Positions 30,216 through 54,238 of a stretch of 64,000 bases of DNA are shown one piece after another. The notes under the pieces are model-generated. The model had not been told where the DNA came from and made no database searches. It saw only the letters and a list, made by a program, of their open reading frames with translations. The position numbers were made by a program, and so were the translations under genes. The first letter of the stretch is position 1. Every line of letters begins with the position of its first letter. Source of the DNA: Pseudarthrobacter siccitolerans (GTDB lineage Bacteria > Actinomycetota > Actinomycetes > Actinomycetales > Micrococcaceae). The stretch spans positions 186,001 to 250,000 of the forward strand of contig NZ_CAQI01000044.1 in assembly GCF_001046895.1 (NCBI RefSeq), written 5' to 3'.

Positions 30216-30247
30216 TGCATCCAAATGGCTGCTGGCGCCGGTAGTAG
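30216..30247 (+). promoter_or_regulatory. ECF-type promoter of the DUF4397-sortase-sigma operon
   Basis: TGCATCC (30216-30222), 16 bases, then CGGTAGTAG (30239-30247). The same element with the same spacing occurs before the second DUF4397 gene (54207-54238), and the sequence between is also similar. The -35 part resembles the CCATCC of SigK-class ECF promoters known from mycobacteria. A GC hairpin (30265-30279) and an AAGGAG ribosome binding site follow. Confidence 0.7.
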
Positions 30248-30295
30248 GTGTGTAAGCAAAAACCGCCCGCCTGGCGGGCCGAAGAAGGAGAAATC

Positions 30296-31129
30296 ATGCG
30301 AACCAGCATTTTTGCATCAGGAGCAGTGGCAGTAGCGGCGGCACTGGCTTTCGCCGGCCCCGCCCAGGCTGCCGAAGGGGACGCCCAGCTCTCCGTCCTG
30401 CACGGGGTTCCCGGGCTGACGGTGGACGTGTGGGTCAACGGCGAACGGACGCTGGACGACTTCACGCCCGGCACTTTGGCCGGTCCCCTGGCACTTCCGG
30501 CAGGAAACTACGCTCTTGCCATCACCGCCGCCGACGCAGCAGACGCGTCCGCCGCGGTAATCGGCCCGGTCAATGTGACCCTTGCCGCCAACGGAAACTA
30601 CACCGCGGTGGCCAACCTGGATGGCGCCGGGAAGCCCACGGCCAACCTGTTCACCAATGACGTCTCGGCGATTGCCGCCGGCAAGGGCAAGCTGACGGTG
30701 CGGCACACGGCTGCCGCGCCCGCCGTCGACGTCCTGGCAGCCGGGTCGGCAGTCATATCCAACCTGGTAAACCCGAACGAGCAGACGCTCACGCTTGACC
30801 CGGGCACCATCCCGGCTGCAGTGGCGGCGGCCGGAACCACCCAGCCCGTCATCGGCCCGGCTGACGTCACGGTGGCCGAGGGCACGCACACCATCGTGTA
30901 TGCCTGGGGCAGCCTGGCGGACAACAACCTGCAGCTGGCCGTGCAGACCATCGAGGGCCTGCACTCAGCTCCGGGAGCAGTTCCGGGCGGACGCTCAGGT
31001 GCGGCGGATGAAGGTACCACCGGACAGGCCATGGCAGTTGCCGGGTTCGGTGCAGCAGGCCTTGCGCTCATGCTCGGAGCTGTGGCTGCTTCCCGCACCG
31101 CGGCCCTGCGCAAGGCCGGCCGTAAGTAG
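30296..31129 (+). CDS. Secreted DUF4397 protein with C-terminal membrane tail
   Basis: This 277-residue protein has a Sec signal peptide (MRTSIFASGAVAVAAALAFA, cleavage near AQA-AE). Two DUF4397 beta-sandwich repeats follow: the first starts LSVLHGVPGLTVDVWVNG, the second LTVRHTAAAPAVDVLAAG, each ending in a VIGP-x-V strand. After a Gly/Ser-rich linker comes a hydrophobic helix (about 250-268) and a basic end (LRKAGRK), the layout of a cell-wall sorting signal. However, no LPXTG is present. The ATG at 30296 has AAGGAG 6 bases upstream. A class F sortase gene follows 9 bases later, so this protein is a candidate substrate. Its ligand and role are unknown. Confidence 0.85.
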   Translation: MRTSIFASGAVAVAAALAFAGPAQAAEGDAQLSVLHGVPGLTVDVWVNGERTLDDFTPGTLAGPLALPAGNYALAITAADAADASAAVIGPVNVTLAANGNYTAVANLDGAGKPTANLFTNDVSAIAAGKGKLTVRHTAAAPAVDVLAAGSAVISNLVNPNEQTLTLDPGTIPAAVAAAGTTQPVIGPADVTVAEGTHTIVYAWGSLADNNLQLAVQTIEGLHSAPGAVPGGRSGAADEGTTGQAMAVAGFGAAGLALMLGAVAASRTAALRKAGRK

Positions 31130-31138
31130 CTGACTGAC

Positions 31139-31921
31139 ATGGAAAGCACGACGGCGGCGCCCCGGTTCCGAAGGTCTACTGACCTTCCGGCCCCGGTGTC
31201 CACAGCGCGGGTGGCCACGGCGGAGACTGCCGCAACAAGCCGTTCCATCCGCGCCCGGGCGGGTGCCGCCGTCGTCCTTGCCGCAGCCCTCCTCACTGGA
31301 TGCGGCACATCAGCACCAACCGTGCCGGAAGCTGTCCCGTCCGGGACCGCCTCCCCCGCGGTCCAGGCCGGTGAATCCGCTACCGCGCCGGCTCCTGTTC
31401 CCGTAACGTCACTCCCGCCCGCCGCTGTACCGGAGGTTCCCGTCCGCCAGGCCACTGCCGTCCCCGCTGCTCCGCGGGACCCGGCACCCCGTTTCCTGAC
31501 AGTGGAAGGCACCAGCATCAGCATGGAGATCGTGGACGTGGGCACCTCCCCGGACGGGGCGATGGAGATTCCGGAAGCCTTCAACCAGGCAGGATGGTAC
31601 CGGTATGGGCCGGCTCCGGGCGCAGTGGCCGGGGCAGCCGTGATCGCCGCCCACGTGGACACGGCGTCGGACCGGGCACCGTTTTCGCAGTTAAGGGGCC
31701 TGCCGGCCGGAACCCTCGTCACCGTCGAGCGCCACGGCGCCCCTGCGCTGAACTACCGGGTGCGTTCCGTTGAGCTGATGGCCAAGGACAGGTTCGACGG
31801 CGGTTCCCTTTTCCGCCGAGACGGGCCGCACCAACTCAGGCTGGTGACGTGCGGCGGCCGGTGGCTGGACGAGAAACAGGACTACAGTGACAATGTCATT
31901 GTCACTGCGGAACTTGAATGA
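31139..31921 (+). CDS. Class F sortase
   Basis: This 260-residue protein is a sortase transpeptidase or a relative, acting on the outer face of the membrane. The catalytic His is in VIAAHVDTASDRAPFSQL (about residue 165) and the catalytic Cys in QLRLVTCGG (about 239). DYSDNVIVTAEL closes the barrel, the pattern of class F actinobacterial sortases. The N-terminus is 40 residues of polar sequence, then a hydrophobic stretch ending in the lipobox-like LLTGC (Cys 55), so it may be a lipoprotein rather than a transmembrane-anchored enzyme. Its stop overlaps the sigma factor start by 4 bases. Confidence 0.88.
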   Translation: MESTTAAPRFRRSTDLPAPVSTARVATAETAATSRSIRARAGAAVVLAAALLTGCGTSAPTVPEAVPSGTASPAVQAGESATAPAPVPVTSLPPAAVPEVPVRQATAVPAAPRDPAPRFLTVEGTSISMEIVDVGTSPDGAMEIPEAFNQAGWYRYGPAPGAVAGAAVIAAHVDTASDRAPFSQLRGLPAGTLVTVERHGAPALNYRVRSVELMAKDRFDGGSLFRRDGPHQLRLVTCGGRWLDEKQDYSDNVIVTAELE

Positions 31922-32598
31922 GCCGCGAGTCAGCCCTGACACTCATTGCCGAGGAAGGGAAGGAGGCCGGTTTGGCATCTTCTGCCCAGCCGTCTTCCGG
32001 CGACGAGCAGCACCATGGCGGACAAGCGCAGCCCTCCGCCGGCGGCACCTGGAACCCGCAACTCGACCACTCGTTTTCCGCCGGGGATGAAAAGGCCCTG
32101 GCTGAGGCCTACCGCCAGTTTTCGCCGCTCGTGTACACCCTGGCCCTCCGGGCGCTGCGGAACCGCAGCGCCGCGGATGACGTGACGCAGGAAGTCTTTA
32201 TCCGGGTATGGAAATCCCGGACCATGTTCGATCCGCGGAAGGCCGCGCTGCCGGCCTGGATTGTAGGTATCACCCGGAACGCCATCTCCGATGCGCTCGC
32301 CGCCTCTGCCCGGGAATCCCGCAAGGTGCTGGCCGCAGTGGAACTGCAGCCAGAGGCGGAGGACGCAGCGGCATCCGCGTCCGCCGAAATCCTGGCGGAC
32401 CGGCTGATCCTGGACGGCGAGCTGGCCCGGCTGGGCGAACCCCAGGGCTCCATCATGCGCCTGGCTTTTTACGATGACCTGACCCACGACCAGATTTCAC
32501 GCGAACTCAACCTTCCCCTTGGTACGGTCAAGAGTCATATCCGCCGCAGCCTTAGCCACCTGAGACACCGATTGGAGGTGGACCATGCAGCACCTTGA
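31918..32598 (+). CDS. ECF-type RNA polymerase sigma factor
   Basis: This 226-residue protein is a sigma-70 family extracytoplasmic-function factor. Region 2 runs about 62-125 (YRQFSPLVYTLALRALRN, DDVTQEVFIRVWKS, AWIVGITRNAISD). Region 4 runs about 165-220 (LTHDQISRELNLPLGTVKSHIRRSL). No region 3 is present. The first 45 residues are polar. ATG 31918 overlaps the sortase stop, but a TTG at 31972 has a much better GGAGG ribosome binding site and may be the true start. The end overlaps the anti-sigma gene by 14 bases. Gene context and the cognate-like promoter suggest SigK-class control of surface proteins; that assignment is inference. Confidence 0.9.
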   Translation: MSRESALTLIAEEGKEAGLASSAQPSSGDEQHHGGQAQPSAGGTWNPQLDHSFSAGDEKALAEAYRQFSPLVYTLALRALRNRSAADDVTQEVFIRVWKSRTMFDPRKAALPAWIVGITRNAISDALAASARESRKVLAAVELQPEAEDAAASASAEILADRLILDGELARLGEPQGSIMRLAFYDDLTHDQISRELNLPLGTVKSHIRRSLSHLRHRLEVDHAAP

Positions 32599-33352
32599 CC
32601 CTGAAGCCCTGAGCCTGTTCGCCCTAAACGAGCCAATGGACGCCCGGAGCGCTGACCACCTCCGCTCCTGCCCCGAGTGCAGCACTGAGGTTGCGGCGCT
32701 GCGGCGCGCCGTGAACGCGGTGCGGACCGTCCCGGACTCCGGCGGACTGGAAGCCCCGGGTGCGAATGTCTGGGAAGGGATCCACCGGCAGCTTGGGCTC
32801 ACAGACGCGGTGGCGGCTGATCCGCTGGGTCCCGCCCGCGGCCGGGGGGCCACCACGGGGGAAACCGGACCGGAAGAACAGCGTCACGCAGGACAGCAAA
32901 CAGGAAAACCCCGCAGCAATGTGGCCTGGCTGCGCCGGCCGGCGACGTGGCTGGCGGCCGCCGCTGCAGCCGTCCTGATCACCACCGGGGTTGTGCTGGC
33001 AGTCAACCGGACGGCCGTTCCGGTGACCCTCGCCTCGGCCCAGCTTGAACCGCTGGACCGCTACACTGCCACCGGTTCGGCCACGGTGACTGAGGCCAGC
33101 GACGGCTCGCGGACCATCGAAGTACAGCTCAACAAAACCGAAGCCAGCGGTTACCAGGAAGTCTGGCTGATCGCTCCGGACCTGTCCCGGCTGGTCAGCC
33201 TGGGGATCATGAACTCACCGTCCGGCCGCTTCGAGGTGCCGGCCGGCCTGGACCTGTCCGGCTACCCCATCGTTGACGTGTCCGATGAACCGCTCGACGG
33301 CAATCCGGCACACTCCAGCGTCAGCATTGTCCGGGGCACACTCAGCTCCTGA
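32585..33352 (+). CDS. Anti-sigma factor with zinc-binding motif (RskA-like)
   Basis: This 255-residue protein is predicted to hold the neighbouring sigma factor at the membrane. The N-terminal zinc anti-sigma motif is H25-x3-C29-x2-C32 in HLRSCPEC. A single membrane helix lies at about 118-138 (WLAAAAAAVLITTGVVLAV). The outer C-terminal domain is of the RskA type (TIEVQLNKTEASGYQEVWLI, SPSGRFEVPAGLDLSGYPIV). Release probably follows regulated proteolysis, as known for RskA. It is translated in overlap with the sigma gene, which fits balanced production. Confidence 0.9.
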   Translation: MQHLDPEALSLFALNEPMDARSADHLRSCPECSTEVAALRRAVNAVRTVPDSGGLEAPGANVWEGIHRQLGLTDAVAADPLGPARGRGATTGETGPEEQRHAGQQTGKPRSNVAWLRRPATWLAAAAAAVLITTGVVLAVNRTAVPVTLASAQLEPLDRYTATGSATVTEASDGSRTIEVQLNKTEASGYQEVWLIAPDLSRLVSLGIMNSPSGRFEVPAGLDLSGYPIVDVSDEPLDGNPAHSSVSIVRGTLSS

Positions 33353-53440: not shown

Positions 53441-54151
53441 TCAGTGGTGGCCGCGTCCCTGGTGCTCGGAGTCAACAACCTGGACAGCGGTGGCGAGGGT
53501 GCCTTTAGCCAGGCTTCCCCAGGCATACACGATGGTGTTCTTGCCGCCCTCGATGGTGATGTCCGCCGGGCCGATCACGGGGGTGGTGGTGCCGGCCGCC
53601 GCAACGGAAGCCGAGATGGTCCCGGCCCTGAGCTTCAGGGTGGCTTCGGCGGGGTTGCTGAGCCCCTCGATCACTGCAGTTCCACCAGCCAAAATGTCGA
53701 CGGCGGGCGCTGCGGCTACGTGCCGCACCGTCAGTTTCCCCTTCTTGTCGTTGCGCGGAGCCCTGGTGTCATTGGTGAAGAGCGTGGCAGTGGGAGCGCC
53801 GTCAGCGCTGAGATGCGCCACCGCCGTATAGTTTCCGCCGCCCTCAAGTTCAACGGACACCGGCCCGATCACCGGATTGGCTGCGCTGGTGGCGTCCGAA
53901 GCGGTGATGGCAATGTCGTAGTCTCCGCCCGCGAGTTCCAGCGGACCGGCCAGCTTTCCGGGAGTGAAATCATTGAGGGTGAGGTTGCCGTTAACCCAGA
54001 CGTCCACGGTCAGCCCGGGCACGCCGTGGAGAACCGAGAGCCTGGCGGGATCATCGCCGTGGTGGTGCCAGCCGCCTGCCTGGGCCGGAGGGGCGAAAGC
54101 CAGTGCGGCCGCGAGTGACAGTGCACCGGCGGCGTAGGTTGATGTGCGCAT
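53441..54151 (-). CDS. Secreted DUF4397 protein, no membrane tail
   Basis: This 236-residue protein is a close paralogue of the product at 30296-31129. It has a signal peptide (MRTSTYAAGALSLAAALAFA, cleavage near AQA-GG), a His-rich start of the mature form (WHHHGDD) and two DUF4397 repeats (LSVLHGVPGLTVDVWVNGNL; LTVRHVAAAPAVDILAGGTA). It ends shortly after IVYAWGSLAKG in a His-containing tail (EHQGRGHH). It lacks the C-terminal helix of its paralogue, so it should be released or bound non-covalently. A GAGGAG ribosome binding site precedes ATG 54151. It carries the shared ECF promoter element. Confidence 0.87.
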   Translation of the reverse strand: MRTSTYAAGALSLAAALAFAPPAQAGGWHHHGDDPARLSVLHGVPGLTVDVWVNGNLTLNDFTPGKLAGPLELAGGDYDIAITASDATSAANPVIGPVSVELEGGGNYTAVAHLSADGAPTATLFTNDTRAPRNDKKGKLTVRHVAAAPAVDILAGGTAVIEGLSNPAEATLKLRAGTISASVAAAGTTTPVIGPADITIEGGKNTIVYAWGSLAKGTLATAVQVVDSEHQGRGHH

Positions 54152-54206
54152 TTCAAACTCCTCAGGGGGACGCCCGCGGGGACGGGCTGTGCTTGTGCTT
54201 ACACCT

Positions 54207-54238
54207 CTACTACCGGCGGAGCAGCCCCTGTGGATGCA
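54207..54238 (-). promoter_or_regulatory. ECF-type promoter of the second DUF4397 gene
   Basis: On the minus strand TGCATCC (54238-54232), 16 bases, CGGTAGTAG (54215-54207). It is identical in both boxes and spacing to the element at 30216-30247. Flanking similarity (GGCTGCT in the spacer, GGTGTAAGCA after) extends the match. A GC hairpin (54172-54187) again lies just before the ribosome binding site. Confidence 0.7.

Follow-up and report, generated by a model that had tools for sequence, protein, structure and literature searches.

The window analysed here, a stretch of 64,000 nucleotides from Pseudarthrobacter siccitolerans (contig NZ_CAQI01000044.1, positions 186,001 to 250,000 of the forward strand), carries a four-gene operon, in which genes for a secreted DUF4397 protein and a sortase are followed by those for an extracytoplasmic function (ECF) sigma factor and its membrane-bound anti-sigma, and, distant from it on the opposite strand, a second DUF4397 gene. 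Our conclusion, to which we give a probability of roughly 0.8, is that the sigma factor drives both its own operon and the distant paralogue and thus governs a two-promoter ECF regulon; this figure does not extend to the proposed action of the sortase. The same model had been put forward in an earlier sequence-only reading of the window, and it was supported by the conservation of two promoter boxes and their spacing, by the co-occurrence of the sigma factor with DUF4397, by retention of the box at 19 paralogue loci whose 1.5 kb flanks hold no sigma match and by one genome (G123) in which the operon is split over two contigs and both promoters are boxed. The features concerned are the following.

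30216-30247, plus strand: predicted operon promoter, consisting of TGCATCC (-35-like, 30216-30222), a 16-base spacer (N16) and CGGTAGTAG (-10-like, 30239-30247); box and spacing are conserved and the spacer is variable.
30296-31129, plus strand: DUF4397 protein, operon form (PF14344, E 1.6e-28), with a signal peptide, two beta-sandwich domains, a VPGG motif, a membrane helix (249-274) and a basic tail.
31139-31921, plus strand: class-F-like sortase (PF04203, E 3.8e-15), with His172, Cys238 and a lipobox-like Cys55.
31918-32598, plus strand: SigK-like ECF sigma factor (PF04542/PF04545, regions 2 and 4).
32585-33352, plus strand: membrane anti-sigma factor with a PF10099 RskA_C outer domain (E 2.1e-11), an HxxxCxxC motif (HLRSCPEC, zinc-type) and one membrane helix.
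54207-54238, minus strand: second predicted promoter, TGCATCC-N16-CGGTAGTAG, ahead of the paralogous DUF4397 gene.
53441-54151, minus strand: paralogous DUF4397 protein, secreted form without a sorting tail (PF14344, E 9.3e-33).

The operon genes follow one another on the plus strand (30296-33352) in the order DUF4397, sortase, ECF sigma, anti-sigma, with neighbouring genes overlapping or separated by 9 bases, and the domain matches confirmed the unit of overlapping or closely spaced genes that had been described from the sequence. The DUF4397 gene most likely starts at ATG 30296, rather than at GTG 30248 of the open reading frame list, to judge from the signal peptide and from GAAGAAGGAG, which lies upstream. 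No other PF14344 match was found in the genome (4.77 Mb, 64 contigs), and the two DUF4397 proteins are 65% identical over 199 residues.

In the window, the pattern TGCATCC-N14-18-CGGTAG occurred twice, and it did not occur in 100 shuffles. When the search was run on the whole genome the same two exact sites were obtained, each ahead of a DUF4397 gene, with none for the reversed control; the earlier statement that both boxes and their spacing precede only the other DUF4397 gene therefore holds, for exact matches, across the genome. The motif ends 48 bases before the ATG in the operon and 55 bases before it in the paralogue. Allowing up to 3 mismatches in the 16 fixed bases, with N16, gave 35 genome sites compared to 100 for the reversed control; beyond the two exact sites none had 1 mismatch, one had 2 and 32 had 3, the 2-mismatch site lying within a long reading frame. 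The looser pattern TGCATCC-N18-GTANNA gave 3 genome sites, of which the third again lay within a long reading frame. A larger regulon in this genome was rejected at the stringency tested, as the extra sites examined lie in long reading frames; reading-frame context was looked at for the 2-mismatch site, the third loose site and the family sites in G062, G086:C26, G005 and G099. Both leaders contain a candidate short GC hairpin between promoter and start codon (30265-30279 and 54172-54187), and the minimum free energy of the whole leader is -11.7 kcal/mol for the operon and -15.6 kcal/mol for the paralogue.

Comparison across loci gave the broadest view of the box. A -35-like box was present upstream of DUF4397 in all 120 loci gathered, which include the best 80 of at least 412 DUF4397 matches; among these 80, the closest relatives of the window protein come from Arthrobacter and Pseudarthrobacter, and Cellulomonas, Cryobacterium, Agreia, Herbiconiux, Microbacterium, Kocuria, Sanguibacter, Oerskovia and Georgenia are also represented. 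The 80-locus set overlaps with the family genomes (at least 8 shared), so that the 120 loci are not 120 independent genomes, and deduplication left 95 distinct N16 sites; one further locus (L244) stands outside the table of 120, no start having been picked, though it has the box. The form was TGCATCC in 104 loci, TGCAACC in 11, CGCATCC in 4 and TGCAACT in 1, with a spacer of 16 bases in 104, 15 in 14 and 17 in 2; TGCATCC or TGCAACC appeared in 2.9% of mononucleotide-shuffled upstream regions. Among the 95 distinct N16 sites GCATCC was invariant, as were one G and one A of the -10 element, in which a further G was conserved at 85%, while of the spacer columns only the one directly following the box reached about 1 bit, and none of the others exceeded 0.7. 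The same 95 sites show, at offsets -18 to -10 and thus immediately ahead of the -35 box, an A-rich and then a T-rich stretch, which is possibly an UP-like element.

Conservation continues past the -10 element into GGTGTAAGCA and, together with the hairpins possible in both window leaders, this could be taken to mean that the box is the binding site of a classical regulator, or an element of the 5′ leader, and no promoter. However, two short boxes, a variable spacer of 16 bases and a distance of 44-74 bases to the start codon (118/120 loci) are the geometry of an ECF promoter, and the conserved four-gene unit holds no regulator gene besides the sigma pair; we consider a non-promoter box to be very improbable.

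At the level of the order, 24 of 30 loci had TGCATCC and 1 had CGCATCC directly upstream of DUF4397, and in 3 more (L253, L260 and L275) the box stood ahead of a fasciclin gene, which is the first gene of the operon there. These fasciclin genes (PF02469), which precede DUF4397, lie at L253:718-1377, L260:728-1372 and L275:725-1372. For three divergent DUF4397 genes of the family (G116, G079 and G045; L167-L169) no TGCATCC or TGCAACC was found within 700 bases and no match to the window sigma within the fetched stretch; a weak sortase match lies beside the one at L169. The boxless genes of these three genomes represent a second, divergent kind of DUF4397 present in some family members.

The distribution of the sigma factor coincides with that of DUF4397. 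With presence of the sigma set at 113 bits or more (a cut of our own choosing; the next score was 97), sigma and PF14344 occurred in the identical 37 of the 149 genomes in the family set, and all four genes were together in 36 of the 37 operon loci. The exception is G123, in which sigma and anti-sigma adjoin a secreted-type DUF4397 gene and the DUF4397-sortase pair is on another contig; G440 resembles it in being seemingly split. In the genus set (121 genomes) the sigma was found in 65 and a DUF4397 match in 66, with 65 common to both, the extra DUF4397 match (G513) being a fragment of 83 residues. Exact motif matches across the 149 genomes, with spacers of 14-18, numbered 83 (76 for the reversed control) and were spread over 63 genomes. 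At N16 there were 23, of which 18 fell in the 37 sigma genomes, 15 of these ahead of DUF4397; the remaining 5 were among the 112 genomes without sigma, which have no PF14344, and 4 of these sites are in G075, G143, G049 and G073. The off-target N16 sites in G062, G086:C26, G005 and G099 were all within long reading frames. The specificity of the motif comes only from its position and the 16-base spacing.

The paralogue offers a separate view of the second target, as its promoter can be followed in places where the sigma gene is not adjacent. In the 30 best matches within the genus to the secreted-type gene, the box was present at N16 in every case (29 TGCATCC and 1 CGCATCC), and 19 of these loci had no sigma match inside their 1.5 kb flanks. 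A sigma match followed downstream on the same strand in the other 11, within about 0.25 kb in 5 (L298 and L319-L322) and after 0.9-1.0 kb in 6 (L295, L296, L302, L305, L306 and L311). In G478 the secreted-type DUF4397 gene and the sigma gene are about 1 Mb apart on one contig, and in G123 both of the separated promoters carry the box. The retention of the box at sigma-distant loci and in G123 is the strongest argument that the sigma would act in trans on the paralogue.

The identity of the factor that reads the box has also to be considered. The best NCBIfam model for the window sigma is SigK (NF007228), with 110.3 bits, under the cut-off of 226, whereas another gene of the genome (G000:C37:11246) scores 272.9 bits against this model. 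The window sigma was accordingly rejected as the SigK orthologue, and it is SigK-like rather than SigK; the comparison with mycobacterial SigK drawn in the sequence-only reading stands as a likeness, but not as an identity, since the orthologue is a separate gene. The window sigma exceeds the general threshold of TIGR02937 (92.6 bits, over 42.9), has ECF regions 2 and 4 only, and among solved structures matched an RpoE/SigE chain of Rhodobacter type (2q1z) with 81.8 bits and SigK with 74.7 bits. It contains no cysteine; according to PMC7509140, Cys133 and Cys183 of SigK are retained by 94% of ECF18 members and by 56% of ECF19 members, and so the cysteine pair is not universal. The HxxxCxxC motif was found in 98 of 103 anti-sigmas, the window member included, which has a single hydrophobic run from residue 119; a search of solved-structure sequences with the anti-sigma gave no match. 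With HLRSCPEC present, it is a predicted zinc-type anti-sigma, as had been proposed.

The presence of a SigK orthologue elsewhere in the genome means that the box might be the promoter of another factor, for example the true SigK, with the operon sigma regulating something else. The -35 element of SigK is CCATCC, which has CATCC in common with the box. Nevertheless, the boxed DUF4397 genes track the window sigma (the same 37/149 and 65/121 genomes), the box precedes the operon that encodes this sigma, which is the usual mark of an autoregulated ECF factor, and in G123, in which the sigma adjoins the other DUF4397 gene, both promoters are boxed. Control by another factor seems to us quite unlikely, and recognition of the two promoters by the window sigma is strongly inferred from these comparisons.

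We also looked for joint change in sigma and box. TGCAACC-N15 occurs in one clade, and the sigma of that clade has H or Y where the helix motif KSHIRRSL has its first R. On the sigma tree a branch of 8 carries the change of the box letter, while the residue change and the spacer change, one of each, fall on the branch of 9 that encloses it; L189/G007 has H at the helix residue together with TGCATCC. The sigma alignment covered 95 of the 120 loci (of the 25 missing, 4 are secreted-form or split loci); 2 of the 95 rows were unusable, and 87 remained for the tree after deduplication. As the box letter changes only once, the co-change is weak proof and was rejected as an independent argument; it fits with the sigma reading the box.

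Several observations speak against the regulon as proposed. The loci are related to one another and several represent one genome entered twice. The search for the box used a consensus in which the -35 element counted more heavily, and this inflates its apparent invariance. Of the 30 order-level loci, one carries TGAATCC instead, and another, with a divergent DUF4397, is boxless. The change from TGCATCC to TGCAACC occurred once on the tree, near the branch on which helix residue R209 and the spacer change, and R209 changes elsewhere without a change of the box. Finally, occurrence of the motif at random before unrelated genes, which had been named as evidence against the model, was not seen for exact matches in this genome, but across the family, at spacers of 14-18, exact matches are about as frequent as chance would give, and many of the matched genomes have no sigma.

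If the two-promoter regulon is correct, an outside signal would free the sigma from its membrane anti-sigma, and the freed sigma would direct RNA polymerase to TGCATCC-N16-CGGTAGTA both at its own operon, thereby activating itself, and at a single distant gene. Each of the two targets encodes a secreted, double beta-sandwich DUF4397 protein: the operon form, with VPx[GA], helix and basic tail, is probably anchored to the wall or the membrane by the co-transcribed sortase, and the paralogue, without a sorting signal, is probably released. To judge from the conserved loci, the same putative circuit is one that recurs in related bacterial families.

The predicted structure of the DUF4397 protein (47 sequences, mean pLDDT 84.4) is all beta to residue 219 and has a C-terminal helix at 249-274. 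With this model, Foldseek pointed to PepT1/PepT2, namely to their extracellular domains (E 7.3e-6 at best, query-based TM at most 0.50), and weakly to AlgF domains; both likenesses appear to be of tandem beta-sandwiches only, and a search of solved-structure sequences with DUF4397 gave only chance-level matches. Among 116 operon-form tails, [VI]Px[GAS] was found in 110, a hydrophobic stretch in all 116 and a basic tail in 115, and the four short-form proteins were without the tail (4/4). As the operon form has the VPx[GA]/helix/basic tail and the paralogue does not, anchored and released forms of one surface protein are inferred, the anchored form being handled by the operon sortase at VPx[GA].

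The window sortase had been called class F, and class F (NF033748) is indeed its best model; however, its 124.3 bits are under the class F cut-off of 166, and class-F-like is the more accurate term. The class F model was matched by all 39 aligned operon sortases (best E 5.3e-39), the other sortase class models reaching 1.6e-8 at best for any of the 39. The sortase fold was found and His172 and Cys238 were invariant in 39/39. A search of solved structures with the single sequence gave no match, and with the sortase profile known sortases were matched, but weakly (best E 0.0003). A lipobox-like Cys (Cys55 in the window) in 36 of the 39 suggests that the operon sortase is a lipoprotein; by a simpler pattern the figure is 69/105, with some starts perhaps misassigned.

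Whether this enzyme acts on the DUF4397 protein is less secure than the regulon itself. Beyond the catalytic Cys the 39 aligned sequences share no conserved Arg (R227 is invariant but precedes Cys238), and the proposed sorting motif is [VI]Px[GAS] and not LPXTG; for these two reasons sortase action is only predicted. Coupled with the score below the class F cut-off, they leave a substantial minority chance that the sortase does not act on DUF4397 and that the C-terminal helix serves simply to anchor the protein in the membrane. Pointing the other way, the order motif, stretch, basic tail is complete in 109 of the 116 operon forms (1 of the others has too few basic residues and 6 have no motif), the sortase gene is adjacent in 36/37 loci, its His and Cys are invariant in the aligned members, and the 11 loci with a sigma match after a short-form DUF4397 gene gave no sortase match, although in 6 of them 0.9-1.0 kb of unassigned sequence lies between the two. 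Probable processing of the operon form by the sortase is the reading that we retain.

Among known systems, the nearest is SigK-RskA of Mycobacterium and relatives (ECF18/19 neighbourhood), SigK being the best NCBIfam model for the window sigma and the window anti-sigma having RskA_C. According to PMC7509140, SigK regulates itself and counts MPT70 and MPT83, both secreted, among its targets; the title of PMC3342273 calls MPT83 a secreted lipoprotein. MPT70 is the free form, and both are fasciclin proteins; a fasciclin gene is also the first gene in three distant operons like the one described here. The window system differs in its score (110.3 bits against a cut-off of 226), in having no Cys in place of Cys133/183, in targets that are DUF4397 proteins with a sortase, and in the box TGCATCC-N16-CGGTAGTA. 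In Streptomyces, the ECF sigma BldN and its linked anti-sigma RsbN control chaplins and rodlins, and here too, according to PMC4255298, secreted surface proteins exist in long sortase-attached and short forms; the targets are unrelated, however, the control is developmental and concerns aerial hyphae, and the passages concerned do not place a sortase in the sigma operon. Class F sortases are matched by all 39 operon members, but the window protein is under their cut-off and 36/39 have the lipobox-like Cys.

The sequence-only reading had taken a DUF4397/sortase regulon to be undescribed. A literature search that did not extend to the large ECF classification papers found none in which DUF4397 appears together with both sigma factor and ECF, and none in which it appears together with sortase, and the papers mentioning DUF4397 were unrelated by title; the claim is thus checked only in part. 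In a paper on a Leifsonia anti-sigma K (PMC6323826), the word 'operon' does not occur and the passages on the factor report no promoter. The group and its motif may already be on record in automated ECF surveys. An autoregulated ECF surface regulon is a known type, of which the proposed DUF4397/sortase regulon would be a new variant. A wider formulation, which we offer tentatively and rate at somewhat under even odds, is that of an order-wide ECF system, sister to SigK, solely for one DUF4397 surface protein in anchored and free versions, with a lipoprotein-type sortase reading the non-canonical signal VPx[GA] and with fasciclin proteins joining the operon in some families.

For DUF4397, a domain whose function is not known, the analysis points to a likely regulator and promoter, and to a likely partner enzyme and location. 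The natural series of sigma factors and promoters (TGCATCC-N16, TGCAACC-N15, and -10 elements with GGTAG or GGAAG) is a possible source of orthogonal promoters, and a logic in common with the mycobacterial SigK-fasciclin system is suggested.

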